In this document: piece by piece, positions 1,591 through 31,770 of the stretch
How positions within the stretch are numbered: position 1 is the stretch's first letter
Layout of the letters: each line of letters opens with the position of its first letter
Origin: Frigoribacterium sp. CG_9.8
Lineage (GTDB): Bacteria; Actinomycetota; Actinomycetes; Actinomycetales; Microbacteriaceae
Direction: 5' to 3'
Length of the DNA stretch: 64,000 nt
NCBI RefSeq assembly: GCF_015751965.1
Contig: NZ_JADOVH010000002.1
Span: forward strand, 62,001-126,000
Translations under genes and position numbers: made by a program
The notes under the pieces: generated by a model
Database searches by the model: none
Told to the model about the DNA's origin: nothing
Seen by the model: the letters and a program-made list of their open reading frames with translations, nothing else

Positions 1591-2757
1591 ATGAAGTTCG
1601 GATCGCCCAAACGCACCCCCGCGGTGATCGCGTCGGCAGAGGCGAATACCGCGAGGCAGCAGGCCGATGCGACACTTCCGGTCGGCATTCGGATCGCGGG
1701 AGCCTGGTCGTGGCGGATACTTCCGATCGCCGCCGTGATCGCTCTGTTCATTTATCTTGTGATCACGCTGCGCGAGATCGTGGTTCCGTTCATGGTCGCC
1801 ATCCTGCTCGCGGCGCTGCTCGTGCCGCTCGTGAAATTTCTCGTGCGCCACCGCTGGCCCAAGTGGCTTGCCGTTGCTCTCGTGGAGATCGGGCTGTTGG
1901 CCGTGGTGTTCGGCCTCATCTTTCTCGTGGTCGTCCAGGTGCGCAGCGGGTTCCCCGATCTGCAAAAGCAGAGCATCGAGGCATACGACAACTTCACACG
2001 GTATCTTCTGGCATCGCCGTTGCACCTGACCAGCGCGGACATCACCGCCTATCTGGGCCAAGCGTGGGCGGCGATCCAGAAAAATAGCCAGGCTCTGGTT
2101 TCTGGCGCGGTGACCTTTGGAACAACGGCCGGACACGTTCTGGCGGGAACGCTACTTACGCTCTTCGCCACGCTTTTCCTGCTCATCGACGGGGGCGGCA
2201 TCTGGGCGTGGGTGGTGCGGCTGTTCCCCCGCAAGGCGCGTGGAGCCATTGATGGCTCCGGGCATGCCGGGTGGGTCACCCTCACCAACTTCGTTCGGGT
2301 GCAGATCTTCGTGGCCTTTGTTGATGCCGTCGGCATCGGACTCGGAGCCTGGATCATCGGGCTCTTCTTCGGAGGATTCCCCCTGGTGATCCCGATCACG
2401 GTCGCGGTGTTCCTCGGATCGTTCATCCCGGTCGTCGGTGCGCTGTTCTCTGGAGCGCTCGCCGTCTTTATCGCGCTCATCTATCTCAACCCCATTGCGG
2501 CACTGATCATGCTGGCCGTCGTGATCGGCGTGCAGCAGATCGAGGGTCACGTTCTGCAACCCTTTGTCATGGGCACGGCGGTGCGGGTGCATCCTCTCGC
2601 AGTCGTCTTCGCTGTCGCGGCCGGCGGATTCCTCGCGGGCATCCCCGGAGCCCTGTTCGCGGTGCCGGTCGTTGCCACCGTCAATGTGATGGTCAAATTT
2701 GTGGCCAGCGGGCGATGGCACAGCACCGTCGAAACCCGCGCGGAGACGAATGCCTGA
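1591..2757 (+). CDS. AI-2E family (UPF0118) membrane transporter
   Basis: A 388-residue integral membrane protein with about seven or eight hydrophobic segments. It has the family plan: two N-terminal helices, a soluble stretch around residues 110-160 (FPDLQKQSIEAYDNF), then a long membrane block ending with the conserved PLAVVFAVAAGGFLAGIPGALFAVP region. The family was named for autoinducer-2 export by TqsA, but many members move other solutes, including Na+(Li+)/H+ antiport, so no substrate is assigned. The end overlaps the threonine dehydratase start by 8 bases. The ATG at 1591 is supported by a -10 hexamer six bases upstream. Confidence 0.88.
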   Translation: MKFGSPKRTPAVIASAEANTARQQADATLPVGIRIAGAWSWRILPIAAVIALFIYLVITLREIVVPFMVAILLAALLVPLVKFLVRHRWPKWLAVALVEIGLLAVVFGLIFLVVVQVRSGFPDLQKQSIEAYDNFTRYLLASPLHLTSADITAYLGQAWAAIQKNSQALVSGAVTFGTTAGHVLAGTLLTLFATLFLLIDGGGIWAWVVRLFPRKARGAIDGSGHAGWVTLTNFVRVQIFVAFVDAVGIGLGAWIIGLFFGGFPLVIPITVAVFLGSFIPVVGALFSGALAVFIALIYLNPIAALIMLAVVIGVQQIEGHVLQPFVMGTAVRVHPLAVVFAVAAGGFLAGIPGALFAVPVVATVNVMVKFVASGRWHSTVETRAETNA

Positions 2758-3988
2758 ACTCACCCTCGCTGGCCCGACGCTCGCCGGCTTCGAAGCGGCC
2801 CGCATCGTTGTGTCCCAGGTTGCCGAGATCACTCCGATGGAGAGCTCTCGTTTTCTTGCTGAGCTGCTCGGCTCTCCGGTCTACCTCAAGTGCGAGAACC
2901 TGCAACGCACCGGTTCGTACAAGATCCGTGGGGCCTACAACCTCATCTCGCGACTCACCGACGAAGAAAAATCCCGTGGCGTGGTCGCGGCATCGGCAGG
3001 CAACCACGCCCAGGGGGTGGCCTTCGCGGCCCGCGAGCTCGGTATTTCTGCGACCATCTTCATGCCGGTCGGAGTCGCCCTTCCGAAGCTGCAAGCGACC
3101 CGCAACTATGGCGCAGAGGTCGTGCTTCGAGGCAATGCGGTCGATGAGGCGTTGCGCACGGCAGCCGAGTTCGCGGCGAATACCGGTGCCGTCTTCATCC
3201 CTCCGTTCGACCATGCGGATGTCGTGGCAGGCCAGGGCACAGTCGGTCTGGAAATGCTCGATCAGGTTCCCGACCTCCAGACCGTGATTGTGCCCATCGG
3301 TGGCGGTGGCCTCATCTCCGGGGTGGCGAGCGCGCTGAAGCAGAAGTTCGCGCTTCTTGGCCGCTCGGTTCGGATCATTGGCGTGCAGGCAGAGAATGCC
3401 GCACCGTATCCACTCTCGATCCTCAATGGTGTCTCGACAGCAATCAAGTTGCTGCCGACAATCGCTGACGGGATTGCGGTGAGCAAGCCGGGCATCCTCA
3501 ATTTCGAGATCATCAGGCATGCTGTCGACGAGATAATCACCGTCTCGGATGACGACATCGCGCGCGCAATGCTTGTGCTGCTCGAGCGGGCAAAACTGGT
3601 GGTCGAGCCCGCCGGGGCCGCCGCCGTTGCAGCGATCATGACCGGCCAGGTGACGGATGCCGGCGTCACTGTTGCAGTGCTCAGCGGAGGGAACATCGAC
3701 CCGCTCGTGATGGAGCGCGTGATCTCACGCGGGCTCTCGGTGTCCGATCGCTACCTCAAACTGCGGCTGATGTTGCCAGACCGTCCGGGTCAGCTCGCGC
3801 GAATCGCCGAACTTGTTTCCGAGGCGAACGCAAACGTTGTGGAGGTGTTGCATACTCGCAACGGTCGCAACGCCCTTTTCGGCGACGTGGAGCTCGAGCT
3901 CAGCATCGAAACTCGAGGGCCGGAACACGTGCAGCGCGTACTTGGCGTTCTCGTCGAGGCGGGCTACGAGCCCCGCATCGACTTCTGA
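2750..3988 (+). CDS. ilvA: threonine ammonia-lyase (threonine dehydratase) with C-terminal ACT domain
   Basis: A 412-residue PLP enzyme converting L-threonine to 2-oxobutanoate and ammonia, the first step towards isoleucine. The PLP lysine is K58 in GSYKIRGAYN, the phosphate-binding loop is PIGGGGLISG, and the N-terminal region up to about residue 320 is the fold-type II catalytic domain. A single ACT-like domain (LKLRLMLPDRPGQLARIAEL) fills roughly 335-412. This architecture is the short type, about 400 residues, shared by catabolic TdcB-like and actinobacterial IlvA enzymes. The ATG at 2750 was preferred over a frame extension to 2699, because conserved sequence begins there and the upstream stretch is only the end of the previous gene in another frame. 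Confidence 0.92.
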   Translation: MPELTLAGPTLAGFEAARIVVSQVAEITPMESSRFLAELLGSPVYLKCENLQRTGSYKIRGAYNLISRLTDEEKSRGVVAASAGNHAQGVAFAARELGISATIFMPVGVALPKLQATRNYGAEVVLRGNAVDEALRTAAEFAANTGAVFIPPFDHADVVAGQGTVGLEMLDQVPDLQTVIVPIGGGGLISGVASALKQKFALLGRSVRIIGVQAENAAPYPLSILNGVSTAIKLLPTIADGIAVSKPGILNFEIIRHAVDEIITVSDDDIARAMLVLLERAKLVVEPAGAAAVAAIMTGQVTDAGVTVAVLSGGNIDPLVMERVISRGLSVSDRYLKLRLMLPDRPGQLARIAELVSEANANVVEVLHTRNGRNALFGDVELELSIETRGPEHVQRVLGVLVEAGYEPRIDF

Positions 3989-7064: not shown

Positions 7065-7850
7065 GTGGCACAGCGGCAAGTTCCCTTCGGACGCGGCATC
7101 CTCTACGGGCTCTACCAAAACCGGATCCGTCGCTTTCTGGCCACCCAGCAACTGCCGAAGCACGTCGCGATGATCCTGGACGGCAATCGGCGCTGGGCCA
7201 GGCAACGGCTGCTCGAAACAGCGGCCCACGGGCATCGTGCCGGAGCGGCGAAGTTTCGTGAGTTCCTGGTCTGGTGTGACGACCTGTCGATCGCCACAGC
7301 CACGCTCTACCTGCTGTCGACCGATAACCTCACCGGTCGCACGACGGAAGAAATCGACGAGTTACTTCAGATCATCGCCGAGCTCGCAGAGGACCTCTCC
7401 CACTTTCGTGACTGGCGGGTGCAGCATGTGGGTTCCATCGACTCACTGCCACCCCACCTCATCGACGCCCTCACGACGGCAGAAAAGCGCACCGCCGCGA
7501 ATACCGGGATGCACATCAACCTCGCGGTCGGCTACGGCGGAAGGCGAGAGATCGCCGATGCGATGCGCAGCATCGTCACCACGCACGAGGAGGAGGGCGG
7601 CACGCTCGATGCACTCGCGGAGATCCTCACCCCCGAGCTCATCGGTGACCACCTCTACACCGGGGGTCAGCCCGATCCCGACCTCGTCATCCGCACCTCG
7701 GGCGAGCAGCGCCTCAGTGACTTCATGCTGTGGCAGAGCGCACACAGCGAGTTTTACTTCGTTGAGGCACTCGGGCCAGACCTGCGTGAGGTCGATTTTC
7801 TTCGTGCGCTGCGCGATTATGCCCGCCGCCAGCGACGCTTTGGAAGTTAG
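7065..7850 (+). CDS. uppS: cis-prenyl transferase (isoprenyl diphosphate synthase, UppS/Z-FPP synthase family)
   Basis: A 261-residue cytosolic enzyme adding isopentenyl units in cis to an allylic diphosphate. Motifs are MILDGNRRWAR with catalytic D39, HGHRAGA near 56, LSTDNLTGR, and the C-terminal DLVIRTSGEQRLSDFMLWQ block. Actinobacteria carry two homologues: a short-chain Z-farnesyl diphosphate synthase and a longer-chain decaprenyl enzyme for cell-wall lipid carriers. The position beside hemolysin III matches the mycobacterial Z-FPP synthase gene, but chain length cannot be fixed from the sequence. Confidence 0.93.
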   Translation: MAQRQVPFGRGILYGLYQNRIRRFLATQQLPKHVAMILDGNRRWARQRLLETAAHGHRAGAAKFREFLVWCDDLSIATATLYLLSTDNLTGRTTEEIDELLQIIAELAEDLSHFRDWRVQHVGSIDSLPPHLIDALTTAEKRTAANTGMHINLAVGYGGRREIADAMRSIVTTHEEEGGTLDALAEILTPELIGDHLYTGGQPDPDLVIRTSGEQRLSDFMLWQSAHSEFYFVEALGPDLREVDFLRALRDYARRQRRFGS

Positions 7851-15993: not shown

Positions 15994-17085
15994 GTGAGCA
16001 TCATTACCAACGGCGAGGCCGTCAGCCTGAACATGCCGCGGGTTCCCGCGGTACGCAACAGGCTACGGGACAACCCTGTCGCGGGAGGCAAACGGGTGCT
16101 GCTCGCGGCCCCGCGCGGCTACTGTGCAGGAGTGGACCGAGCGGTCATCGCGGTAGAAAAGGCGCTCGAGCACTACGGGTCACCGGTCTACGTGCGCAAA
16201 CAGATTGTGCACAACATCCACGTGGTGTCGACTCTCGAAAAGCAGGGTGCCATTTTCGTCGACGAGGTCGACGAAGTTCCTGTCGGTGCTCATATCGTTT
16301 TTTCCGCACACGGCGTCTCGCCGGCGGTCGTTGCGGCTGCGGCCGCGCGCAACCTCGAGGCCATCGATGCCACCTGCCCTCTGGTGACCAAGGTGCATCG
16401 CGAGGCGGTGCGCTTCGCCCGGGACAACTTCCAGATCCTTTTGATCGGCCATGCTGGCCATGAGGAGGTCGAAGGCACCATGGGCCACGCGCCCGAGCGC
16501 ACGACCCTCGTGAACGGACCGGCGGATGTCGCGACCCTCGAGGTCACCGACCCCGACAACCTGGTCTGGCTCAGCCAGACCACCCTGAGTGTCGACGAGA
16601 CGATGGAGACGGTGCGCCTGCTACGCGAGCGCTTTCCCGCCCTGCACAATCCGCCGAGTGACGACATCTGCTACGCCACCCAGAATCGCCAGGTCGCTAT
16701 CAAGAAGGTGGCCGAATCGGCGGAATTGGTCATCGTGGTCGGTTCAGCCAACAGCTCCAACACCGTTCGTCTGGTGGATGTCGCCCTCGAGAACGGCGCG
16801 AAGACCGCCTACCGCGTGGATTACGCCAGTGAGATCCAGCAGGAGTGGCTCGACGGCGTCGCAACCGTCGGTGTCACCTCCGGGGCATCCGTACCGGAAG
16901 TGCTCGTGCAGGAAGTGCTCGACGACCTCGCCGATGCGGGCTATACCGACGTGCGCCAGGTCGTCACCGCGGAGGAGGATCTGATGTTCTCGCTGCCCAA
17001 GGAGTTGCGCACCGACGTCAACGGTAAGGACGACGCTCGGGGGCTCGGGGGCCGCACCCGCCAGCTCGATTGGCAGCAGAAGTGA
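15994..17085 (+). CDS. ispH: 4-hydroxy-3-methylbut-2-enyl diphosphate reductase
   Basis: A 363-residue Fe-S enzyme for the last step of the MEP pathway, giving IPP and DMAPP. Counting from the GTG, cluster ligands are C44 (PRGYCAGV), C128 (DATCPLV) and C226 (DDICYAT). Substrate residues sit in IVHN, SAHG and HEEVEGT. GTG at 15994 fits a TAGAAT hexamer 7 bases upstream. ATG at 16033 is an alternative that would remove 13 poorly conserved residues. The end overlaps the next gene by 4 bases (GTGA). The IPP made here feeds the prenyl transferase at 7065. Confidence 0.95.
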
Positions 17086-17699
17086 CCGATCAGCCCGAGC
17101 GTCCGCAACCCGAGCGCCCGAAGCCGCAGTACGGTGAATATGCCTCGGCGCAGGAGCAGGCGAAGATCATCGCCGATTCTTTCCCGGCAGTGTCACCGCT
17201 GAGTGTGCCTTCTCAGACTGTTTCCCCTGTGCCCGTTCCGAATGAGCCTGTTCCGAACGCGCCTGTTCCACACACACCTGTTGCGCCCGCGTCTGTTCCC
17301 CCTGTGCCGAAGCCTGCGGCGGGCCGTCGCCGCCGCCGTTGGGACGTCATCCTCACCGCCGGGCTGCTCGGCTATGCCACCATCAACGTGATCGCACAAC
17401 TGCTCGCGCGTGACACCCTTGCAACGATCGCGAAGCAGTTTTTCGTCGCGCAGGGCATCGGCGACTACACCCCGACGGCGCTCACCGCGAGTCTCGGCAC
17501 AACCCTCAACGTGATTACGCTCGCGCTGTTCGTCATCACGTTACTGGTGACCACGTGGATGCTGCGAAGCGGCCGAATCGCCTTCTGGGTGCCGATCACC
17601 GGTGGGGTCGTTGCGACCATCGTGGCACTGGTTTTCGTCGTGATCCTGCTGCAGTCGGACCCGACCTTCGTGCAATTCTTCGATCGCACCCGGCGCTAG
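17082..17699 (+). CDS. DUF6264-like membrane protein
   Basis: A 205-residue protein. The N-terminal part is cytosolic and contains [14 protein letters not shown] followed by a run of Val-Pro repeats ([17 protein letters not shown]). A basic stretch RRRRRW leads into three membrane helices at about 90-110, 135-160 and 167-190. It resembles a family common in Microbacteriaceae, which I believe is DUF6264; the family name is from memory. Function unknown. It is coupled to ispH by GTGA overlap. Confidence 0.75.
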
Positions 17700-17702
17700 C
17701 TG

Positions 17703-17736
17703 CACCCCGCTGCCCGCACCACCCCGCTGCTCGCAC
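17703..17736 (+). repeat. 17-bp tandem duplication after the DUF6264-like gene
   Basis: CACCCCGCTGCCCGCAC is followed directly by CACCCCGCTGCTCGCAC, just after the stop codon and before the palindromic element. Confidence 0.6.
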
Positions 17737-17751
17737 CCACCCGAATCTCCA

Positions 17752-17815
17752 ACACGGGCGAATTCGGACATTCCGGGCCGGCGTGCTGGCCCGTACTGTC
17801 CGAACTCGCCCGTGT
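17752..17815. repeat. palindromic intergenic element, copy A
   Basis: Outer arms of 19 bases (17752-17770 and 17797-17815, one mismatch) flank an inner palindrome GGGCCGGCGTGCTGGCCC (17775-17792). It lies between convergent DUF6264-like and fba genes. Two related copies occur at 27123 and 56841. The long stem could act as a bidirectional terminator, although no clear T-run follows. Confidence 0.85.
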
Positions 17816-17872
17816 GAGAGGGGATCGACGGCCCGAGACGAGTTACCCCGGCGCTAGTTCGGTCCGTGCTCG

Positions 17873-18898
<1,026 letters not shown>

Positions 18899-19012
18899 TG
18901 GATCTCCTTCGGTCGCGCAGCACATCCGGATCCGGAGCGCACTCGAGTCTATTGAACTAAAGAACCCCGGATCTTTAGATTGTTCGCGAGTGTGATGGTT
19001 GCCGTCGCTGGG

Positions 19013-19018
19013 TACCCT
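19013..19018 (+). promoter_or_regulatory. -10 TACCCT, leaderless promoter of glpX
   Basis: TACCCT, six bases, then the ATG at 19025. It supports that ATG over an in-frame extension upstream to 18980. Confidence 0.5.
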
Positions 19019-19024
19019 TGTGGC

Positions 19025-20008
19025 ATGGACACTGCCACCGGATCGACCTTCCAGCACCCCGACCGCAACCTCGGAATGGAGCTGGTGCGAGCGACCGAGG
19101 CTGCCGCGATTCGTGCGGTGCCCTTTATCGGGCGCGGCGACAAGCTCGCTGCCGATGGAGCCGCCGTTGATGCCATGCGCAAGTTTCTCGGCACCGTCGA
19201 CTTCGATGGACTGGTGATCATTGGTGAGGGCGAGAAGGATCACGCCCCGATGCTTTACAACGGCGAGCGTGTCGGCACGGGGCAGGGGCAGGCCTGCGAC
19301 ATCGCGGTCGACCCGATCGACGGCACCTCACTCACTGCAGCCGGCCGGCAGAACGCCCTGTCGATGATTGCGGTGGCGGACCGCGGCAGCATGTACGACC
19401 CCTCTGCCGTCTTCTACATGGACAAGATCGTCACCGGTCACGAGGGTCACGGGGTCGTCGACCTCCGCAAGCCGATCGGCGAGAACATCCGCGCCCTCGC
19501 GAAGGCGATGCACAAAGATGTTGCGGATCTGGTCGTAGCAGTGCTCGACCGTCCGCGTCACGCCCAGCTCATCGAGGACATCCGCGAGGCGGGAGCCGGC
19601 ACCAGACTGCTGCTCGACGGGGATGTGGCCGGCGGCATCAACGCTGCGCGCTACGACGCCCGCATCGACATGTGTGTCGGCCGTGGCGGCACGCCGGAGG
19701 GCATCATCACCGCCTGCGCCCTCAAGGGACTCGGGGGATTCATCCAAGCCAAACTCGCGCCGCAGAGTGACGACGAGCGCCAGAAGGCAATCGACGCCGG
19801 GCACGATCTCGATCGCATTCTCGAGATTAACGACCTGGTCACAAGCGATAACACCTACTTTGTCGCGACCGGTGTCACCGACGGCCAGCTCGTCGGCGGG
19901 GTGCGCAAAAAAGGTCCGATCATCAGCACAGAGAGCATTGTGCTGCGGGGCCGCTCGGGCACGATTCGACGGGTCGTGGCCGATCACCTCGCCGAGAAAT
20001 GGCTGTAG
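19025..20008 (+). CDS. glpX: class II fructose-1,6-bisphosphatase
   Basis: A 327-residue metal-dependent phosphatase giving fructose 6-phosphate, needed for gluconeogenesis. Motifs are GEGEKDHAPMLYNGE, DPIDGTSLTAAG (metal site) and GRGGTPEGIITA with the substrate loop. The length is typical for GlpX. It is divergent from fba across about 125 bases and tail to tail with rmuC. Confidence 0.95.
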   Translation: MDTATGSTFQHPDRNLGMELVRATEAAAIRAVPFIGRGDKLAADGAAVDAMRKFLGTVDFDGLVIIGEGEKDHAPMLYNGERVGTGQGQACDIAVDPIDGTSLTAAGRQNALSMIAVADRGSMYDPSAVFYMDKIVTGHEGHGVVDLRKPIGENIRALAKAMHKDVADLVVAVLDRPRHAQLIEDIREAGAGTRLLLDGDVAGGINAARYDARIDMCVGRGGTPEGIITACALKGLGGFIQAKLAPQSDDERQKAIDAGHDLDRILEINDLVTSDNTYFVATGVTDGQLVGGVRKKGPIISTESIVLRGRSGTIRRVVADHLAEKWL

Positions 20009-20025
20009 GCGCCCAGTTCTGACTG

Positions 20026-21360
20026 TCAGTCGGACAAGCCCGGCTTCACCTCACGAGCACTCACGATCTCGAGCTCTTCGACGAGCTCGAAAGCGGTGAG
20101 GTCGCGGGGGAGTTCCTCGATCTCGGCGTGCGTACCGAGCACTTTCGACGGCTCGAGCAGGTTGAGTTTTCGAGCAGAGGGCAACACCTGGCGTTCGAGT
20201 GAACCGACGAATCCGTTGTAGTTCTTCACCGTGCTCTCGATCGAACGACCGAGCTTCTCGATGTGGCCGGCGAGGGTGGCAAGACGACCGTACAGTTCGC
20301 GACTGGTCTCGAAGAGCATCTTCGCCTCCTGCGTCACCACATCCTGCTGCCAGCTGAAGGCCACGGTCTTCAGCACTGACCATAGCGACACCGGGGAGAC
20401 CAGTGCCACTTTCTTGGAGAACGCGTAATCCATGATCCCAGGATCGGCTTCCATCGCAGACGAGACAAGCGACTCGGAGGGGATGAACGCCACCACGAAC
20501 TCCGGCGACGCATCCAGCCCATCCCAATACGCCTTGCTGCTCAGGGTGTCGACGTGGGCCCTGATCGCGCGCACATGCTGCTTGATGAGGGACTGCCGTC
20601 GCGCACCCTCCTCCCCGGTCGCGGTCACGGCAATCTGGCTCGCTTCGAGGTAGGCGGTGAACGGCACCTTCGCGTCGACGGCGATGTTCTTGCCGCCGGG
20701 CAGGTGGATGACCATATCCGGTCGGCCGGCACCGGCATCCGAGGAGATGGATGACTGCACGTCGAAGTCGACCCGCTCGATCAGGCCGGCTGCCTGCACC
20801 ACATTGCGCAGTTGGGTCTCGCCCCAGACGCCGCGCGTGGCGTTGTTGCGCAGCGCGGACGCGAGCGACTCTGCCGTGCTTCGCAGGCGCTCCTCCGACT
20901 CCGTGGCGTTGCGCAGCTGCTGGGTCAGTTCGCCGTGCTGCAGGCTGCGCTGGGTCTCGAGCTCTGTGACCTTCAGTTGCATGCTGCGGAGGGATTCTTG
21001 CACCGGGGTCAGCGCTTGCAGTACCTTGCTCTCCCGCTGCTGCCGGTCGGCCTCGGCTAGCTGGTCTTGGCGCTGACGATCAACCAGATCCTGATACTGC
21101 TGCTGTTGCGCGGCGACCTGCTCCTTCAGCGCGAGTGCAGTGGCCTGGATCGCGGCGAGCTCGGCTGCGAGTTGTGCTCTCACGGTCGCTTCCTCTGCGC
21201 GCACGGCACCGAGAGCGAGTTCGTTCTGGGATGCGAGGAGGGCCGGGTCGACCCCGAGTGGGGCATCCGCCCTCCGCGCGCGCGCAAACAACAGCCCGAT
21301 GACGGTGCCGAGCACGATTCCGATGACCAGTCCGACGATGAGCGATGCGATGGGATCCAT
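20026..21360 (-). CDS. rmuC: DNA recombination protein RmuC
   Basis: A 444-residue protein with one N-terminal transmembrane helix (residues 4-26), a long Gln/Glu-rich coiled coil (about 45-175) and the RmuC domain from about 190. Domain marks are RGVWGETQLRNVVQAAGL, RPDMVIHLPGGKNIAVDAK and the nuclease-like core. E. coli RmuC limits inversion at short inverted repeats, which is notable here because long palindromes occur in this chromosome. ATG 21360 is chosen since the extension to 21462 precedes the membrane helix and has no conservation. Confidence 0.9.
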   Translation of the reverse strand: MDPIASLIVGLVIGIVLGTVIGLLFARARRADAPLGVDPALLASQNELALGAVRAEEATVRAQLAAELAAIQATALALKEQVAAQQQQYQDLVDRQRQDQLAEADRQQRESKVLQALTPVQESLRSMQLKVTELETQRSLQHGELTQQLRNATESEERLRSTAESLASALRNNATRGVWGETQLRNVVQAAGLIERVDFDVQSSISSDAGAGRPDMVIHLPGGKNIAVDAKVPFTAYLEASQIAVTATGEEGARRQSLIKQHVRAIRAHVDTLSSKAYWDGLDASPEFVVAFIPSESLVSSAMEADPGIMDYAFSKKVALVSPVSLWSVLKTVAFSWQQDVVTQEAKMLFETSRELYGRLATLAGHIEKLGRSIESTVKNYNGFVGSLERQVLPSARKLNLLEPSKVLGTHAEIEELPRDLTAFELVEELEIVSAREVKPGLSD

Positions 21361-21472
21361 CCGGCCAGTCTGGCAGCGAGCTCCGACACTGCTGTCATCA
21401 CCCGCTCGGCACAAAACATTTCGAGAACAATACGGTGTGCCTGATCGGCTGGATCGCAGCAAATCGCGCGGC

Positions 21473-21478
21473 TAGCAT
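21473..21478 (+). promoter_or_regulatory. -10 TAGCAT, leaderless promoter of mmsA
   Basis: TAGCAT followed by six bases and the ATG at 21485. Confidence 0.55.
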
Positions 21479-21484
21479 GGCGGC

Positions 21485-22972
21485 ATGGACATCGTGAATC
21501 ATTGGATCGGCGGCTCATCCGTCGCAGGCGACTCGACCCGCACCGCTCCCGTATTCGACCCGGCGCTCGGCACTGTCGCCCGCGAAGTGCGACTGGCGAC
21601 GACCGCGGATGTCGACGGGGCCGTTGCCGTAGCGAAAGCCGCCTTCCCGGCGTGGGCCGAGACATCCCTCGCCAAACGACAGTCGATCATCTTCACCTTC
21701 CGCGAACTGCTGAACTCCCGCAAGCAGGAGCTTGCCGAGGTCCTTACCGCAGAACACGGCAAGGTGCTCTCCGATGCGCTCGGCGAGATCGCCCGCGGAC
21801 TCGAGGTGGTGGAGTTCGCCACCGGCTTTCCGCACATGATGAAGGGCGAGTACTCGGAGAACGTATCGACCGGGGTCGATGTGTATTCGACCCGTGAGCC
21901 GCTCGGCGTCGTCGGCATCATCAGCCCGTTCAACTTTCCGGCGATGGTCCCGCTCTGGTTCTTCCCGATCGCGATCGCAGCAGGCAATACCGTGGTGCTG
22001 AAGCCGAGCGAGAAGGATCCGTCTTCATCCAACTGGCTTGCCGCGCTGTTCACCGAGGCTGGGCTCCCCGACGGCGTATTCAACGTTGTTCACGGTGACA
22101 AGGTGGCCGTGGATGCACTGCTCGAGCATCCGGATGTCGCCTCGATCTCCTTCGTCGGCTCCACTCCGATCGCCCGCTACATCTACGAGACCGGATCCAA
22201 GCACGGCAAGCGCGTCCAGGCGCTCGGCGGGGCGAAGAACCACATGCTGGTGCTGCCGGATGCCGACCTCGACCTCGTCGCCGACTCTGCGGTCAACGCG
22301 GGCTTCGGCTCGGCGGGGGAGCGGTGCATGGCCATCAGTGTTCTCGTCGCAGTCGAACCGGTCGCCGATGAGCTGATCGCGAAGATCGCCTCACGGATGT
22401 CGCAGCTCACGGTGGGCGACGGACGCCGCAACTGTGACATGGGCCCGCTGATCACGAAGGAGCATCGCGACAAGGTCGTCGGCTACATCGACATCGCGAT
22501 CGAGGATGGAGCAACGGTGGTCGTGGATGGTCGCGGCATCAACGTGGATGGCGCGGCCGACGGCTTCTGGCTCGGCCCAACGCTCATCGATGCCGTACCG
22601 ACCGACTCCCGGGTGTACACGGACGAGATCTTCGGCCCGGTGCTCTCGGTGGTGCGGGTGGCCTCCTACGACGAGGGCGTTGCGCTGATCAATGCGTCAC
22701 GCTACGGAAATGGCACCGCGATCTTCACCAACGACGGCGGGGCAGCGCGGCGGTTCCAGCGCCAGGTGCAGGTCGGCATGGTGGGAATCAACGTGCCGAT
22801 CCCGGTGCCGGTTGCCTACTTCTCGTTCGGCGGCTGGAAGCAGTCGCTGTTCGGCGACACGAAGGCGTACGGGGCCGACGGTATCCACTTCTTCACGCGG
22901 CAGAAGGCGGTCACCATGCGCTGGCTCGACCCGAGCCACGGCGGCATCAACCTGGGCTTCCCGCAGAACTAG
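21485..22972 (+). CDS. mmsA: CoA-acylating methylmalonate-semialdehyde dehydrogenase
   Basis: A 495-residue aldehyde dehydrogenase using NAD+ and CoA to turn methylmalonate semialdehyde into propionyl-CoA (valine catabolism) or malonate semialdehyde into acetyl-CoA (inositol catabolism). The family-specific catalytic motif GSAGERCMAIS holds the nucleophile C281. FVGSTPIARYIYETG binds NAD, and PFNFPAMVPLWFFP is characteristic of MmsA. No valine or inositol pathway genes are adjacent. The stop and that of the exonuclease gene share the palindrome CTAG, so the two genes overlap tail to tail by 4 bases. Confidence 0.94.
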   Translation: MDIVNHWIGGSSVAGDSTRTAPVFDPALGTVAREVRLATTADVDGAVAVAKAAFPAWAETSLAKRQSIIFTFRELLNSRKQELAEVLTAEHGKVLSDALGEIARGLEVVEFATGFPHMMKGEYSENVSTGVDVYSTREPLGVVGIISPFNFPAMVPLWFFPIAIAAGNTVVLKPSEKDPSSSNWLAALFTEAGLPDGVFNVVHGDKVAVDALLEHPDVASISFVGSTPIARYIYETGSKHGKRVQALGGAKNHMLVLPDADLDLVADSAVNAGFGSAGERCMAISVLVAVEPVADELIAKIASRMSQLTVGDGRRNCDMGPLITKEHRDKVVGYIDIAIEDGATVVVDGRGINVDGAADGFWLGPTLIDAVPTDSRVYTDEIFGPVLSVVRVASYDEGVALINASRYGNGTAIFTNDGGAARRFQRQVQVGMVGINVPIPVPVAYFSFGGWKQSLFGDTKAYGADGIHFFTRQKAVTMRWLDPSHGGINLGFPQN

Positions 22973-23589
22973 GCGCGGAACATCGGGGCCGGGGCCGAGG
23001 CCTGGGCCGAGTCCGTTGCGCGAGGACCGATCGCTCCGATGCGTGCCCCCGTGATCCGCGCGAGCTCTTCGATCGAGCCCGCATCGTGTCGCCGGGCGGC
23101 GTGGACGATGATCGCGGCACAGGCTTCCGAGTCGGCGAGTGCGTCGTGGTGGGCGAAGTCCTCAAAGCCTGCCGCCATCGCCGCGACCGGCAGCCGGTAT
23201 GAGTCGAGCGTGTAGGTCTTGCGGGCAACCTGGAGGCTGCAGAGGTAGCCGAAACCGGGGATGTCCATGACGCTGGCTCGGCAGGCGGCGGAGATCACCC
23301 CCATGTCAAACCTGGCATTGTGGGCGACGAGCAGGTCATCGCCGGCGAAGGCCACGAGGTCGGGCAGCTGCTCACTCCAGAGCTTCGCGTCCGCGACATC
23401 CGGTGCCATGATGCCGTGGATGCGGGTGTTCCACTCGGTGAAGTGATCGAACCCGGCTGGCGGGCGGATGAACCAGGCCACCCGGTCGACGACGACGCCG
23501 TCACGCACCTTCACCAACCCCACCGAGCAGGCGGAGGCGGCCGAGGAATTAGCGGTCTCAAAGTCGATTGCGGTGAAGTTGAGAGCCAT
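22969..23589 (-). CDS. DEDDh 3'-5' exonuclease (DNA polymerase III epsilon-like)
   Basis: A 206-residue nuclease domain protein. Exo I AIDFETAN supplies D9 and E11, Exo II is VAHNARFDMGVI, and Exo III is HHDALADSEACA with the H and D of the DEDDh class. It is a stand-alone exonuclease without a BRCT or helicase domain and may be a proofreading or repair nuclease. Its C-terminal tail (QASAPAPMFRA) is low complexity. Confidence 0.9.
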   Translation of the reverse strand: MALNFTAIDFETANSSAASACSVGLVKVRDGVVVDRVAWFIRPPAGFDHFTEWNTRIHGIMAPDVADAKLWSEQLPDLVAFAGDDLLVAHNARFDMGVISAACRASVMDIPGFGYLCSLQVARKTYTLDSYRLPVAAMAAGFEDFAHHDALADSEACAAIIVHAARRHDAGSIEELARITGARIGAIGPRATDSAQASAPAPMFRA

Positions 23590-23721
23590 TGCGTCATCGT
23601 CTCACGGACGTGCGACGGTGCCAGCGGAGTGCGCTGGCGATCCGCACGATTGGGGTTCGCGCCTCACGGACCTGCGGCGCCCCCTTTTCGCGTTTTCGGG
23701 TTCCCGGTCTGCTCGCCTCCC

Positions 23722-23727
23722 TAGGAT
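23722..23727 (+). promoter_or_regulatory. -10 TAGGAT, leaderless promoter of the SseB-like gene
   Basis: TAGGAT, six bases, ATG at 23734. Confidence 0.55.
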
Positions 23728-23733
23728 TAAGGC

Positions 23734-24132
23734 ATGTCTGAGGTGCGCGACCCCACCGATCTTGAGCGCACGATCGTGCTGGCCCAGTCCGGGCGTGCGA
23801 CCACTGTCAACGTGCTCGAATCGCTCGCGGTGAGTCAGGTGATCGTGCCGAGTGCGACCGAAGTCGTCGACAACCTCAACCAGCTGCAGCCGGTGCTGTT
23901 CGAGGTCGACGGCATCTCGATGCTCGCGGTGTTCACCCACGACGACCAGATCGCCGAGTTCGGTCAGCTCGCCGAATTCGGGGTGTCGATAGTCGGACGC
24001 TCGCTGCTGGCATCGATCCCACCCGGTGCTGGGATCGTCGTAAATCCCAGCCGGTCGATCGGCTTCGAGCTGCTGCCGGAGGGCATCGGTCTGTTTCTGA
24101 CCGAGCTGCACGGTCGTGAGGTTGAGGCGTGA
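23734..24132 (+). CDS. SseB family protein
   Basis: A 132-residue cytosolic protein that looks like the SseB N-terminal domain: LERTIVLAQSGRATTVNVLESL, QPVLFEVDGISMLAVFTHDDQI, and GIVVNPSRSIGFELLPEGI. SseB proteins are widespread but poorly understood; one E. coli link is to rhodanese SseA. A 13-bp tandem repeat begins inside the last codons. A monocistronic unit before ychF. Confidence 0.8.
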   Translation: MSEVRDPTDLERTIVLAQSGRATTVNVLESLAVSQVIVPSATEVVDNLNQLQPVLFEVDGISMLAVFTHDDQIAEFGQLAEFGVSIVGRSLLASIPPGAGIVVNPSRSIGFELLPEGIGLFLTELHGREVEA

Positions 24133-24179
24133 GGTTGAGTCGTGAGGTCTCGTCGTGAGGTCTCGTCGTGAGGTTGAGC
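24115..24179 (+). repeat. 13-bp tandem repeat, five units, upstream of ychF
   Basis: Units beginning CGTGAGGT at 24115, 24128, 24141, 24154 and 24167. Units 1, 2 and 5 read GTTGAG after CGTGAG, while units 3 and 4 read GTCTCG. The stop codon of the SseB-like gene lies in unit 2, and the array ends about 75 bases before the ychF -10. Confidence 0.9.
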
Positions 24180-24254
24180 CGTGGACGATGCACGCGAGCC
24201 GCACGCTCTGCTTCCGGACGGTGCTGCGGTAACAGTCCAATGCGACGCGCTCGT

Positions 24255-24260
24255 TAGACT
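24255..24260 (+). promoter_or_regulatory. -10 TAGACT of ychF
   Basis: TAGACT followed by 8 bases and GTG at 24269. It gives a leaderless or nearly leaderless transcript. Confidence 0.5.
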
Positions 24261-24268
24261 TACCCGTC

Positions 24269-25342
24269 GTGGCTCTTACTATTGCAATCGTCGGTCTGCC
24301 CAATGTCGGCAAGTCCACCCTGTTCAACGCGCTCACCAAGAACCAGGTGCTGGCAGCGAACTATCCCTTCGCCACGATTGAGCCCAACGTGGGGGTCGTG
24401 AGCCTCCCAGATCCGCGTCTCGACACGCTCGCTGCGCTGTTCGGAAGCGAGCGTATCCTCGCCGCCCCAGTCTCGTTCGTCGACATCGCCGGCATCGTCA
24501 AGGGCGCCTCGGTCGGCGAGGGGCTCGGCAACAAGTTCCTTGCCAACATCCGGGAGGCGGATGCCATCGCCCAGGTGATCCGCGGATTCGCCGACCCGGA
24601 TGTGGTGCACGTCGACGGCAAAGTCGATGCGGCCTCCGACATGGAGACCATCAATACCGAACTCATCCTCGCCGACCTGCAGACCCTCGAAAAGGCCGTG
24701 CCGCGCTACGAGAAGGAAGTCAAAACCAAGCGCACCGAGCCGGCCGTGCTCGCCGCTGCCGTCGAGGCTCAGATCTTTCTCGACGCTGGCAAGCCGCTCT
24801 CGTCATCCACCATCGACATCTCGCTCATCCAGGAGCTCGGTCTGCTCACCACAAAGCCCTTCATCTATGTGTTCAACGTGGACGAGGACGTGCTGCAGGA
24901 TGCCGCGGCTCTGGCCACTCTCGCGGCACTGGTCGCCCCGGCCACGGCCATCTTCCTCGACGCCAAACTCGAGTCCGAGCTCATCGACCTCTCCCCGGAG
25001 GATGCTGCGGAACTGCTCGCCTCCACCGGCCAGGAGGAGAGCGGACTCAGCCAACTCGCCCGCATTGGCTTCGACACCCTCGGGCTGCAGACCTACCTGA
25101 CCGCCGGACCGAAGGAGGCGCGTGCCTGGACCATCCCGAAGGGTGCCAAAGCCCCGCAGGCGGCGGGCGTCATCCACACCGACTTCGAAAAGGGTTTCAT
25201 CAAGGCCGAGGTGATCGGCTTCCAGGACCTCGTCGATACTGGCTCGATCGCCGAGGCTCGCGCCAAGGGCAAGGCCCGCATCGAGGGCAAGGAATACGTG
25301 ATGCAGGACGGCGATGTCGTGGAGTTCCGCTTCAATAACTGA
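24269..25342 (+). CDS. ychF: redox-regulated ATPase YchF (Obg family)
   Basis: A 357-residue P-loop protein of the Obg family that prefers ATP and binds ribosomes, affecting stress survival. The P-loop is GLPNVGKSTLFNA. Other marks are VSFVDIAGIVKGASVGEGLGNKFL, a coiled-coil insert around residues 130-165, FIYVFNVDEDVL in place of the usual NKxD specificity motif, and a C-terminal TGS-like domain (GAKAPQAAGVIHTDFEKGFIKAEV). Start GTG with an upstream TAGACT. It follows xseA/ispH in mycobacteria too. Confidence 0.96.
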   Translation: MALTIAIVGLPNVGKSTLFNALTKNQVLAANYPFATIEPNVGVVSLPDPRLDTLAALFGSERILAAPVSFVDIAGIVKGASVGEGLGNKFLANIREADAIAQVIRGFADPDVVHVDGKVDAASDMETINTELILADLQTLEKAVPRYEKEVKTKRTEPAVLAAAVEAQIFLDAGKPLSSSTIDISLIQELGLLTTKPFIYVFNVDEDVLQDAAALATLAALVAPATAIFLDAKLESELIDLSPEDAAELLASTGQEESGLSQLARIGFDTLGLQTYLTAGPKEARAWTIPKGAKAPQAAGVIHTDFEKGFIKAEVIGFQDLVDTGSIAEARAKGKARIEGKEYVMQDGDVVEFRFNN

Positions 25343-25466
25343 CCCTGAGCCTGATGGATGCCGCACACGGTGCTGCGAACTGCGGCAAATGGTCGCCATT
25401 ACGCGGTTCAACCGACATTTCGCCGCAGTTCGCGAGCATCCACCGAGCCACTTTCGAAAGGACAGC

Positions 25467-27092
<1,626 letters not shown>

Positions 27093-27122
27093 TTGTGTGC
27101 AGCCGCGCCCACCTGCGCTCAT

Positions 27123-27188
27123 GATCCGGGCGAATTCGGCCTTTGTGGGCCGGCATGCCGGCCCACACTGTCCGAACTCGCCCGGATC
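27123..27188. repeat. palindromic intergenic element, copy B
   Basis: Outer arms of 17 bases (27123-27139 and 27172-27188, one mismatch) surround a perfect 22-bp palindrome at 27145-27166 (GTGGGCCGGCATGCCGGCCCAC). It lies between the convergent ABC-F and DoxX-like genes. It shares GGGCGAATTCGG, the GGGCCGGC core and TGTCCGAACTCGCCCG with copy A at 17752. Confidence 0.88.
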
Positions 27189-27214
27189 GGATGAGCCAGT
27201 CTGGACGTCGACCA

Positions 27215-27709
27215 CTAGCCGGGCGAGCGACTAGCCCGTATCGCCTTCCACGCCCCGGTCGACCAGAGCGCCCAGATGACGAGGATCGGCTGGAACAGTA
27301 GCCGGATGCCACGCGACAGGTCGCTGTTGAGGCCGAAGGAATCGGTCTGCGTGACCAACTGGGAGATGTTGCCCGGCAGAATCAGCAGGAAGAACACTGC
27401 GACGACCAGGCCCACAAGGACCCTTCGCCTGGCGAGAAGAACAAGCGCGAGTCCGAGCGTGATTTCGACGATTCCGGATGCGACCACAACGAAGTCTGTG
27501 TCGAGAGGTAGCCAGGGTGGCACCTGGGCGCGAAATGCCACTCGACTCACCGTGAGATGGCTGATGCCAGCCAGGAGAAGAAAGGCTCCGAGCAGGAGGC
27601 GGCCGATGGTGCGGGGCACGGAGGTGCGCAGTGCGGAGGGTTGCAGCACAGATTTGAGCAGCACAGATTTGCGTAGGGCAGGAGGACGGGACTCGGCTGG
27701 AGGGGTCAC
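27215..27709 (-). CDS. DoxX-like membrane protein
   Basis: A 164-residue protein with four membrane helices. The first region (IGRLLLGAFLLLAGISHLT) and VASGIVEITLGLALVLL are typical of DoxX/DoxD-type proteins. The role is not known for this member; relatives are linked to quinone or thiol redox systems. The first 30 residues (ALRKSVLLKSVLQPSALRTSVPRT) come from a 15-bp DNA duplication and have no conservation, so a shorter start is possible. GTG 27709 has TAGGAT six bases upstream. Confidence 0.78.
   Translation of the reverse strand: MTPPAESRPPALRKSVLLKSVLQPSALRTSVPRTIGRLLLGAFLLLAGISHLTVSRVAFRAQVPPWLPLDTDFVVVASGIVEITLGLALVLLARRRVLVGLVVAVFFLLILPGNISQLVTQTDSFGLNSDLSRGIRLLFQPILVIWALWSTGAWKAIRASRSPG
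27644..27673 (-). repeat. 15-bp tandem duplication in the DoxX-like gene 5' end
   Basis: CAGCACAGATTTGAG and CAGCACAGATTTGCG in tandem encode the repeated KSVL stretch near the N-terminus. Confidence 0.7.
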
Positions 27710-27715
27710 CCCATA

Positions 27716-27721
27716 ATCCTA
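27716..27721 (-). promoter_or_regulatory. -10 TAGGAT, leaderless promoter of the DoxX-like gene
   Basis: On the minus strand TAGGAT is followed by TATGGG and the GTG at 27709. Confidence 0.5.
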
Positions 27722-27799
27722 AACAGCACCTCAGCACCGAGCCGTCTCAGCACCGGGCGCAGGACCACCGGGCGCCGGCTCACCCACCGAGGCTCGTGC

Positions 27800-29431
27800 T
27801 CAGGTCGTGACCCCCACATGGCTGCGGGCGTGCACGATCGCCGCGTCGAGATCATCGAAGAGGTGATTCTCGTGGCGCAGGGAGCGGATCACGCCCACCC
27901 GTGTCGCGAGCCGCAGATGCTGTTCCTGGATGCCTTTGACGAGCACGGTGATCCCGCGTCCCTCGAGGCCGTCAATCATCTCCGTGATCACGCGTGCCCC
28001 CGTGGCATCCATCACCTGCAACTGAGAGAGGCGCAGTATCACGACGTCGACTCCGGTGATTTGCGTTACTTTATCGAGCATCCGCTCCGCTGCACCAAAG
28101 AAGAGTGCGCCCTCGAAGCGGAACAGCGCGATGTGTTCGTCACCGGGGAGGGCTGGTGCCGGTATCGGCTCGCGATGCACGCCCCCGGACTTCGACAGGG
28201 TACGCAGGGCGAAGAAGGCGGCGGCGGCGATACCGATACCGACGGCCACGATCAGGTCGAATGACACGGTGATCAGGGCGGTGAGTATGAAGACCACCGT
28301 GTCGGATCGCGTGGATCCCACGACACTGCGCACCGTGGTCAGAGAGACCATGCGCGTTGCAGTAACCATGAGAACTCCGGCGAGGGCCGCGAGGGGGATC
28401 TCGGATACCACGCCGGAAGCGAGGGCGACGATCCCGAGCAGCACGATCGAATGGATGATTGCGGCGAGACGGGAGCGTCCGCCAGATCGCACGTTCACCG
28501 CGGTGCGGGCGATGGCTCCGGTCGCGGGCATTCCCCCGAAAAAGCCCGAGGCAACCGATGCCAGCCCCTGGCCAACGAGCTCGCGGTCCGGGTCGTATGT
28601 ACCGGTGTCGGCAAGCGCGGCACCGACCCGTGCGGAAAGCAACGATTCAATGGCGGCCAGCGCTGCCACCGTGAGAATCGGGCCAACGAGCGAGCCGAAG
28701 ATTGCCGGGTCGAGAGGGGGAAGGCTCGGGGCGGGAAGGGAGCTGGGCAGGGCGCCGATTCGCGCAAGGGGCAGGTTACCGACGGCAGCGATAGCAGAGA
28801 CAATGACGATGGCGAGCAGCGATCCGGGGATCTTTGGATGGATGCGTGGTGCGAGCACCATAATGACCGCCACCAGCACGACGGCACCGATTGCCCACGC
28901 GAGAGTGGCCGGATTCACGGTCGCGAATGACTCGATCGCGGCGAGAAACGCGTTACTGCTTTTTCCGGCGGCGCTGCCGATTGCGGCGGGTACCTGCTGG
29001 AGGAAAATAATGACGGCGATGCCGAAGGTGAACCCCTCGATCACCGGCCACGGGATGTAGGAGACGACCCGGCCGAGCCGCAGCACCCCGGCAACGACGA
29101 CTACGATCCCCGCCGCAAGACTGACCAGCGCCACGACAGCGGTGCCGTGAGCGATGACCACCGGTCCGAGAACGACCACCATCGCCCCGGTCGGTCCGGA
29201 GACCTGGATGTTCGATCCTCCGAAGACCGCGGCCACAATTCCCGCGATAATGGCCGTCACGAGGCCGCTTTCTGCCCCGGCGCCGGAACTCACTCCGAAT
29301 GCCAGTGCCAGTGGCAGCGCGACGATACCGACGGTGATACCGGCCAGAAGGTCACCGCGCCACGTACGTTTCACCGAGGAATAGTCTCGCCAGCTGGGTA
29401 AAAGTGCACGCATCGAAGTGCTGGCTGCCAT
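27800..29431 (-). CDS. SulP family anion transporter with STAS domain
   Basis: A 543-residue transporter. The N-terminal 400 residues hold about twelve to fourteen hydrophobic segments, with the SulP signature near the first helices (GDLLAGITVGIVALPLALAFG) and the GLASVASGFFGGMPATGAIARTAVN stretch. The C-terminal part from about 440 is a STAS domain (VVILRLSQLQVMDATGARVITEMID). Sulfate or bicarbonate are usual substrates; here the ion is unknown. The ATG at 29431 has GGAGGAA 6 bases upstream, one of the strongest ribosome sites in the window. Confidence 0.93.
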   Translation of the reverse strand: MAASTSMRALLPSWRDYSSVKRTWRGDLLAGITVGIVALPLALAFGVSSGAGAESGLVTAIIAGIVAAVFGGSNIQVSGPTGAMVVVLGPVVIAHGTAVVALVSLAAGIVVVVAGVLRLGRVVSYIPWPVIEGFTFGIAVIIFLQQVPAAIGSAAGKSSNAFLAAIESFATVNPATLAWAIGAVVLVAVIMVLAPRIHPKIPGSLLAIVIVSAIAAVGNLPLARIGALPSSLPAPSLPPLDPAIFGSLVGPILTVAALAAIESLLSARVGAALADTGTYDPDRELVGQGLASVASGFFGGMPATGAIARTAVNVRSGGRSRLAAIIHSIVLLGIVALASGVVSEIPLAALAGVLMVTATRMVSLTTVRSVVGSTRSDTVVFILTALITVSFDLIVAVGIGIAAAAFFALRTLSKSGGVHREPIPAPALPGDEHIALFRFEGALFFGAAERMLDKVTQITGVDVVILRLSQLQVMDATGARVITEMIDGLEGRGITVLVKGIQEQHLRLATRVGVIRSLRHENHLFDDLDAAIVHARSHVGVTT

Positions 29432-31346: not shown

Positions 31347-31629
31347 GCCTTTCGCGGGCGCCGCGCCTGTTACTTTCGCGCACCCGTCACTTGTGCCCAG
31401 CAGCACGGCTGGCAGCACGGTGCTCACAGCGGATGAGCTGGATGGCGCGCCGCCTGGGCCGATCCCAGTGCGGCGTGGCGTGCAAATCTCCGCTCTGGGC
31501 ACCGCCCGCAGCCGCACCTGCCTGCACCTGCTCGCACCGCCCGCAATATCTTGCGCAACATCCGCCGGTAACGGGTGGATGCCGCGGCAAGTTGATAAGA
31601 TGCTGCCACAACAAAATATCGGGCCCATC
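31347..31629. other. intergenic stretch without a supported gene
   Basis: About 280 bases between the aldo/keto reductase stop and the riboswitch. Open frames on both strands are short and Cys/Arg/His-rich, unlike real proteins here. Its only clear content is a probable promoter at its right end (TTGATA at 31592). Confidence 0.6.
31592..31619 (+). promoter_or_regulatory. probable promoter of the gcv operon
   Basis: TTGATA (31592-31597), 16 bases, then AAATAT (31614-31619). The start would lie near 31626, just before the aptamer. The -10 is imperfect. Confidence 0.4.
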
Positions 31630-31630
31630 A

Positions 31631-31770
31631 ACGCGATGCGGGAGAGCCGGACGCCAGTGCGCACAGCGATATTCGCTGTGCACGCCAGGCAGACCGGCAC
31701 CGAAGGAGCAAGCCTCCCCGCCAATCTCTCAGGTACGTGTACCGCATCGAACAGGCCACTCTGAAATGTC
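31631..31770 (+). ncRNA. glycine riboswitch (gcvT element)
   Basis: The conserved aptamer blocks appear in order: GGGAGAGCCGG at 31640-31650, a long hairpin arm with GCACAGCGA/TCGCTGTGC, GGCACCGAAGGAGCAA near 31696-31711, AATCTCTCAGG at 31723-31733, and a closing CACTCTGAAA near 31757-31766. These match the glycine aptamer. One aptamer is clear; no second full copy follows. About 115 bases of leader remain before gcvT, including an A-run and GCAGC/GCTGC arms that may be the expression platform. It should switch the glycine cleavage genes by glycine level. Confidence 0.9.

Follow-up and report, generated by a model that had tools for sequence, protein, structure and literature searches.

Three palindromes of 60 bp in the stretch of DNA analysed here (64,000 nucleotides, called the window below) belong to a REP-like repeat family of the Microbacteriaceae, and we hold with moderate confidence that this family is served by a partner protein which combines an AbiEi-like part with a nuclease-like one. 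What can be observed directly are the length, the dyad symmetry and the conserved blocks of the elements, their taxonomic range and copy number, their preference for the 3′ ends of genes, and the bracketing of the partner gene by pairs of copies. The analysis suggests a partnership between a repeat and an enzyme; in searches of the literature (open-licence full texts), no description of it, of the repeats, or of a link between AbiEi/DUF559 proteins and palindromes was found among the papers listed.

In the following, G000 is the window's own genome (2.85 Mb), other G codes stand for the compared genomes, and L codes for fetched loci. Gene contexts were obtained throughout with our own ORF caller.

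The palindromes of the window and their family

The three window copies and their neighbour genes are collected in Table 1. The preliminary description of this DNA had reported three palindromic copies with a common core, and both observations are borne out: each copy is 60 bp long, and all three share GGGCCGGC(A/G)TGC(C/T)GGCCC. The arms it gave, GGGCGAATTCGG/CCGAACTCGCCC, apply to copies 1 and 2, while those of copy 3 are GGGCGTGTTCGG/CCGCAATGGCCC. All three copies do lie between converging genes, but the name "DoxX-like" given to one of these genes does not stand, the 149-aa protein having no Pfam hit. RmuC, which had been brought into connection with the repeats, is indeed encoded about 2.2 kb from copy 1, but nothing was found that links it to them.

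Table 1. Elements of the window, the genes on either side of them, and the partner gene of the same genome
Feature	Position	Strand	Remarks
Element copy 1	17754-17813	.	60-bp palindrome; stop of DUF6264 gene 54 nt before, stop of fba 59 nt away
Element copy 2	27126-27185	.	60-bp palindrome; flanks GAT...ATC lengthen the palindrome; stop of ABC-F type gene 33 nt before, stop of facing gene 29 nt away
Element copy 3	56841-56900	.	60-bp palindrome; stop of gltA 29 nt before, stop of dapD 39 nt away
DUF6264 gene	17304-17699	+	left of copy 1
fba, class-II fructose-bisphosphate aldolase	17873-19243	-	right of copy 1
ABC-F type ATPase gene	25467-27092	+	left of copy 2
149-aa gene	27215-27664	-	right of copy 2; no Pfam hit at 1e-5
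gltA, citrate synthase	55510-56811	+	left of copy 3
dapD	56940-57875	-	right of copy 3; ortholog L225:4193-5125 named DapD
Partner gene of G000	L084 5065-6027, contig C4 near 297 kb		outside the window

Copies 1 and 2 form near-perfect hairpins on both strands, with energies of -50 to -58 kcal/mol and folding z values of -8.0 to -9.6, and the hairpin of copy 3 is weaker (z -4.1 and -4.6). A z-score test applied to entire gaps was too coarse and is not relied on here. The earlier statement that no T-run follows the stems agrees with a terminator scan of positions 17000-28000, which reports nothing at copies 1 and 2; nor is a U-tract present in the flanks of the G000 copies or in the consensus. 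At the Rfam gathering thresholds the elements of the window match no described RNA family, and four element loci searched with E up to 1 give sub-threshold matches only, among which P15 (E 0.93) overlaps the element of L078. Elsewhere in the window, a glycine riboswitch is located at 31629-31754, upstream of a gene at 31885.

When up to two mismatches are allowed, the core pattern has 41 strand-matches in G000, compared with one for the reversed pattern; a few of the 41 are due to chance (L017, for example). With a covariance model built from 19 copies, 23 places are found, all of full length, with best-strand E values of 3e-15 to 4e-9 and a weakest strand of 1.8e-6; beyond these there is no further match among those listed up to E 10, where 150 of 2930 first-look candidates were scored. 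The genome-wide search proposed with the preliminary description gives 23 copies, which is also the highest number found in any genome. A blastn search of G000 with copy 2, up to E 10, returns nine partial matches besides the family copies, and the four inspected are in ORFs. G000 also contains an 87-bp palindrome of unrelated sequence (L086, near 7224-7311), which has TTTTT/AAAAA and occupies a convergent gap.

The taxonomic range was examined with model R2, built from 35 copies, and with its reversed form, R3, as a decoy. At E 1e-4 and with strict filters, R2 matches 24 of the 398 Microbacteriaceae genomes sampled, in 9 of 85 genera, and the decoy matches one of the 398; in that genome (G411, L160/L161) the decoy meets another palindrome. 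Most family matches are exactly 60 bp long. When R2 is applied at E 0.05 to 12 genomes of the same genus, four match and eight, several of them incomplete assemblies, do not. Outside the Microbacteriaceae, model R1 matches none of 23 genomes. A pattern scan of 84,980 named genomes, which is not exhaustive since its pattern recognises 18 of the 23 copies of G000, gives Lacisediminihabitans profunda (three contigs) and an Amnibacterium MAG. No relatives of the elements were found among plasmids or phages (blastn) or in IMG/VR (pattern).

Each arm of the element carries three blocks that are mostly common to six genome groups, namely CGGGC at positions 2-6, TTC(G/C)G at 10-14 and CGGGC at 21-25. 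They are spaced by roughly 9-10 bp, the consensus shows dyad symmetry, and the bases between the blocks vary from genome to genome. In the 35 copies, 17 of 28 pairs are changed on both sides. The covariance test of compensatory arm changes that had been suggested earlier shows that pairing is kept, with 81 compensatory cells compared to 38.8 in shuffles; slid controls collapse. Most G000 copies have a short A/T triplet next to them, and the flanks tend to AAT...ATT in G000 and to CGCAAC...GTTGCG in G103, which is an inverted rather than a direct arrangement. The G103 flanks (L193-L209) lengthen the palindrome to about 72 bp, a feature that is less marked in four other genomes compared. No target-site duplication was recognised at the elements.

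It is of interest to consider on which molecule this pairing is maintained. For a selected mRNA hairpin, G·U mismatches are expected to be commoner than A·C mismatches on the mRNA strand. Instead, 51 copies oriented by their upstream gene have 59 G·U and 62 A·C, a result that weakens a reading in terms of RNA only. G000 alone has 23 and 16, and the conserved stem columns have 33 and 22, a difference that is not significant (p 0.18) and leans the opposite way. Judged from the sequences, the constraint looks like one on double-stranded or cruciform DNA, or like the result of a copying process that restores symmetry.

Position relative to genes and between genomes

According to the preliminary description the elements are restricted to convergent gene pairs. 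This is wrong for the genome as a whole, as 12 of the 23 G000 copies lie in tandem gaps, 7 in convergent and 2 in divergent ones, and 2 are inside ORFs. The copies are not spread equally, however, and the idea survives in a weaker form, with convergent gaps enriched and divergent gaps depleted. The convergent excess is modest in G000 alone (7 of 21; binomial p 0.03 against a background in which the element gaps are counted too). In five genomes pooled, 36 of 85 intergenic copies are convergent and 6 divergent, compared with 14% and 25%, respectively, of the element-free gaps of at least 10 nt. The excess stays when each convergent gap is counted as two 3′ ends (36/79 vs 0.32, p 0.01).

A set of 122 copies from 13 genomes comprises 62 tandem, 45 convergent and 7 divergent ones and 8 inside called ORFs, four of the latter within 150 nt of the 3′ end. 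For the 62 tandem copies, the median distance to the preceding stop is 27.5 nt and that to the following start 103 nt (Wilcoxon 9e-9). Once a promoter zone of 60 nt is left out of account, their position in the gap is indistinguishable from uniform for all 62 (KS p 0.25) and differs from uniform in the 26 longer gaps (p 0.01). The 13-genome list omits L239 1377-1437, L240 2918-2978, L235 3190 and 2941 and the L099/L136 duplicates, and the counts omit L017 (the chance match, which is coding), L182 (a copy of L181), L096 (49 bp, G008) and the copies of G004, G011 and G026. Elements that are not exactly 60 bp are omitted from the distance and consensus counts, and L192 is retained in the G392 counts though it is of another sequence type. 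L181 and L182 (G392 at 34 kb and 3381 kb) are 99.98% identical over 6 kb and lie near both ends of one contig; this duplication is probably an assembly overlap.

One of the two in-ORF copies of G000 is in frame in a variable linker of recG, where the site measures 108 bp in G000 and 13 bp in G005 by an alignment in which the comparison is not sharp. The other occupies the coding tail of an ATP-grasp gene, which is itself followed by an Alpha-E gene; this position is common to G000, G008 and G103, the last of another genus. G103 also has an element (L197 3001-3060) inside a dnaX-like gene, beyond its conserved domains; recG and the dnaX-like gene are both replication/repair genes, as reported for REPs.

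Several positions behind genes recur between genomes. The 3′ end of gltA carries an element in G000, G392, G028, G285 and G192 (three genera). Elements are placed likewise behind guaB in G000, G103, G304 and G028, behind an M1 peptidase gene in G000, G005, G008 and G322, and behind lexA in G000, G103 and G304. Other copies are absent at matching places in relatives: L073a and the copy of the fba gap are missing in G005, and no comparable palindrome is present in the corresponding fba gaps of G005 and G003. The "mobile REP/MITE-like family" of the preliminary description is in keeping with a dispersed, REP-like family, with the compensatory changes, with the copies missing in relatives and with the 3′-end preference, its convergent-only restriction being the part that fails. 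Palindromes of other sequence were also seen at some of these positions. G008 has a second 60-bp family (GGCGGGAAAACTGC...) at L121 426-485 and L094 5111-5184, which are 92% identical and one of which is the gltA-dapD gap, and in G002 the same gap contains a 64-bp palindrome of yet another sequence (L123 306-369).

These positions also bear on the alternative of a bidirectional transcript-end element, close to the bidirectional terminator of the preliminary description. Here the hairpins would, on both strands, halt RNA polymerase or shield the 3′ ends of mRNAs, and selection for this would keep the copies behind stop codons. We consider this possible but rather unlikely. It would account for the very stable hairpins on both strands, for the 3′-end bias, the divergent depletion and the convergent excess that persists when two 3′ ends are counted, for the 3′ ends of gltA, guaB, lexA and the M1 peptidase gene that several genera have in common, for the unrelated palindromes in the gltA-dapD gap of G008 and G002, and for the A/T triplet at most G000 copies. 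It is at odds with the missing U-tract, with G·U not exceeding A·C on the mRNA strand, with copies that fall within the coding sequence of recG, of a dnaX-like gene and of an ATP-grasp gene, and with the empty fba gaps of G005 and G003; moreover, a near-fixed length of 60 bp and common blocks are unnecessary for a terminator. A role at transcript ends is also possible as a by-product of a partner-driven family.

Although positions are shared, the sequence of an element follows its genome and not its locus. Copies within one genome differ at 13.7 of 60 positions. In 22 between-genus pairs, which are not independent as several have an element in common, elements at shared loci show 22.3 differences per 60 against 21.9 at unshared loci (p 0.44), and the shared-locus element is the closer one in only 8 of the 22. 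Within genera, shared loci are slightly closer (15.6 vs 17.2, p 0.005; 15 of 17 pairs). Either each genome homogenises its own copies, or repeated insertion has occurred at the same 3′ ends, and the homogeneity at shared positions is a fact that any rival explanation must accommodate.

One explanation in which it could be accommodated is that the elements, placed behind highly expressed genes, are bound by a nucleoid or topology protein, since a changing binder could yield homogeneity across a genome. Gyrase or IHF act at BIMEs and provide a model for this. The dyad symmetry and the spacing of the conserved blocks would suit such a site, and several of the host genes are housekeeping genes. 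Nonetheless, we regard this as improbable, because the copy number, at most 23 found per genome, and the eight same-genus relatives in which none was found (at E 0.05, several assemblies being incomplete) speak against a core function.

The gene between paired elements

We now consider what lies between neighbouring elements. Nine element pairs were inspected, and five of them (in G000, G103, G304, G285 and G192) enclose genes of the same protein family, 306-344 aa in length, at two unrelated loci. A profile search over the ORFs of 167 fetched loci (1.11 Mb, with L106 left out) finds eight homologs, the additional ones being at L243 (G101), L272 (G315) and L273 (G200). In this DNA, which is centred on elements and thereby inflates adjacency, all eight overlap an element or stand within 123 nt of one. 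Six of them, from four genera, are flanked on either side by an R2-called element no more than 146 nt away; at L273 the second side is a 58-bp palindrome not called by R2, and at L272 there is one element only. As called elements were inspected, the eight of 24 element-bearing genomes in which the partner is seen at element loci represent a lower bound.

The partner gene is located between guaB and guaB3 in G000, G103, G304 and G200, and between gltA and dapD in G285 and G192. G101 was fetched for two elements 1.6 kb apart, with the partner expected between them. An aminotransferase gene is there instead, and the partner adjoins the pair, between R2-called copies at L243 1408-1467 and 2519-2578, so that the expectation proved correct in part. 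The partner of G101 adjoins guaB3, and the aminotransferase gene and a further element separate it from guaB; in all, three elements stand in a row behind guaB (L243 1408-4148), with the two genes in the two intervals. At L272 the neighbours are a short-chain dehydrogenase gene and a HipA-like gene, the latter facing the partner gene across the element (1756-3048). No AbiEii toxin gene occurs among the identified neighbours (guaB/guaB3, gltA/dapD, aminotransferase, short-chain dehydrogenase, HipA-like). The gltA-dapD gap of G000 holds one solo element, window copy 3, and in G028 the guaB 3′ end is followed by a solo element and then a LacI-type gene. This alternation between bracketed gene and solo element would fit an element that leaves footprints, although it is not proof.

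Conservation of the partner is lower than that of the genes beside it, with 48% between G000 and G103 against 80% for guaB3 and 83% for guaB. A protein search in IMG/VR and phages gives no relative, and the plasmids yield four distant ones, in Tsukamurella and Collinsella. Pairing is better in the copies of genomes that carry the partner gene (20.6 vs 18.9 of 26 pairs, p 0.002), but this comparison is not used as evidence, since G392, where no partner was seen, scores 20.5 and since presence of the gene was judged at element loci only.

Another option considered was that the elements serve as landing sites or represent scars of recombination, with the AbiEi/nuclease-like gene as one of several cargo genes that come and go. 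Four of the nine pairs, and one pair of G101, do bracket other genes: L073 has an ABC ATPase gene with its neighbour, L211 two aldo/keto reductase genes, L196 a SnoaL-like gene, L238 small genes and L243 the aminotransferase gene. The two L073 genes are, in addition, absent at the single-element locus of G008. However, among the bracketed proteins compared none recurs except the partner family, which is bracketed at two loci (guaB3/guaB and gltA-dapD), in four genera by called elements and in five with L273. We find the cargo explanation unlikely. With regard to the ABC ATPase gene and its neighbour, they have two bracketing elements in G000 (L073) and one element in G005 (L087), and their absence at L092 of G008 is possibly a loss by recombination between elements.

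For the N-terminal half of the partner, PADLOC gives an AbiEi match in all five proteins submitted (best per protein 7e-9 to 1e-14). In Pfam, AbiEi_4 or AbiEi_1 is found below cut-off in five of seven full-length proteins, above it only in L158, and not at all in L241. The C-terminal half has seven residues that are invariant in the seven sequences (E208, D240, E251, D253, K257, E276 and K277). When this part alone was searched against Pfam, none of the three proteins tested gave a hit, and a PDB search with the partner profile gave nothing. In an hhalign comparison, on the other hand, the partner aligns with the gltA-dapD proteins of G005, G003 and G012 (97.5%, E 6.5e-12, 259 columns), the two profiles being small alignments of seven and three sequences. 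The latter proteins have DUF559 above cut-off, MTES_1575 near cut-off and AbiEi_4 below cut-off, and their profile reaches PDB entries 3hrl, "Endonuclease-Like Protein", and 3r3p, "Mobile intron protein" (E 8e-4 and 2e-3), the second of which we take to be a Vsr-like homing endonuclease. On this basis the partner resembles an AbiEi protein with a DUF559/PD-(D/E)XK-like C-terminus, its putative nuclease nature following from the profile comparison and the conserved D/E/K residues. The AbiEi/DUF559 protein class is common in actinobacteria, and the partnership would suggest a role for part of it.

The related genes of G005 and G003 (L119, L120) stand beside palindromes of about 80 bp and of another sequence, starting CGAAATGCAGG, which flank the gene on both sides in G005 (blastn) and on one side in G003. 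In G012 (L129), a DUF559-type gene with a weak AbiEi match is found between gltA and dapD. The gltA-dapD gap of different species thus harbours different palindrome families and different genes of the partner kind, and the G005/G003 gene together with its palindromes may possibly be a second enzyme/palindrome pair.

Possible mechanism and relation to known systems

On the favoured reading of a repeat family served by the partner, the protein, probably as a dimer, would read the palindrome dyad as DNA and would cut or nick at or near it. Repair from other copies would then spread the palindromes and keep the copies of one genome alike. Solo copies, such as the one in the gltA-dapD gap of the window, would be derivatives or footprints of the bracketed gene, insertions would persist mainly behind stop codons, being harmless there, and an occasional element may be put to side use as a transcript end or hairpin barrier. 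The points in favour of this partner-based reading are that all eight homologs are beside elements, that the model finds 24 of 398 genomes where its decoy finds one, that pairing is kept by compensation with symmetry between the strands, that gene 3′ ends are preferred, that sequence follows the genome, and that copies are missing in relatives. It is weakened by the four of nine pairs and the G101 pair that bracket other genes, by the lack of a recognised target-site duplication, by the presence of the partner at elements in only 8 of 24 genomes (a lower bound), by the measurement of adjacency in DNA centred on elements, and by the 33 to 22 preponderance, not significant, of G·U over A·C in the conserved stem columns.

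More tentatively, and with rather less confidence, one may think of a class of selfish DNA in which a fusion of AbiEi with a DUF559/Vsr-like endonuclease acts on the 60-bp palindromes that bracket it, so that these spread and are homogenised across the genome by cutting and repair, i.e. by homing-like gene conversion, and not by transposition. If this is true, the gltA-dapD genes of G005 and G003 beside other palindromes would point to a general actinobacterial strategy of cognate enzyme/palindrome pairs. The bracketed AbiEi/nuclease-like gene would represent a second engine for the spread of palindromes, one that is directly testable, and the family lets one study how dispersed copies stay alike while some positions are inherited.

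The closest parallel is that of REPs and their RAYT transposases. According to PMC2817692 and PMC3733652, REPs likewise are GC-rich dispersed palindromes near gene 3′ ends, sometimes in replication/repair ORFs, with complementary changes that keep the pairing and a fast-evolving gene bracketed by two repeats. REPs lie between convergent as well as unidirectional genes, near 3′ ends, and also in replication/repair ORFs (PMC3733652), and RAYTs are stated to be less conserved than their neighbour genes (PMC2817692). According to the latter paper, REPs usually number more than 100 per genome, compared with 23 copies here, and the present elements also differ in being symmetric and in having no GTAG/CGTC tag. 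That they are ordinary REPs moved by a RAYT is highly improbable, even though the genomic distribution is that published for REPs (PMC3733652): the consensus lacks the tag, the elements are 60 bp and not 20-40 bp long, and the bracketed gene is AbiEi-like plus nuclease-like. Mobilisation by a RAYT was dropped for G000, where Y1_Tnp (PF01797) has no match, although 5 of the 14 genomes of the control search do give one.

The palindromic elements of Rickettsia can, like the present ones, sit in frame in ORFs, and 60 bp corresponds to 20 codons; they measure about 150 bp (PMC10969869), and the elements described here are mostly extragenic. With MITEs the family shares a short, non-coding, dispersed inverted repeat; no target-site duplication was recognised, and no transposon with matching ends was found among the four partial matches of copy 2 that were inspected in G000 (blastn). 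Integron attC sites, which are defined by GTTRRRY/RYYYAAC boxes, were discarded, as inspection of the consensus reveals no such boxes and there is no cassette array. Intrinsic bidirectional terminators are similar in that hairpins are placed just behind the stops of facing genes, and differ in that the elements have no U-tract, a stem of about 26 pairs, a near-fixed length and a common sequence.

On the side of the protein, the N-terminal half matches the AbiEi profiles of the AbiE type IV toxin-antitoxin system (PMC8436566), whereas the nuclease-like C-terminus and the identified neighbours, among which there is no AbiEii gene, set it apart. The C-terminal domain, by profile comparison, is akin to the DUF559/MTES_1575 nucleases and to 3r3p; the difference is that no intron or intein was seen and that the partner gene is instead bracketed by palindromes.
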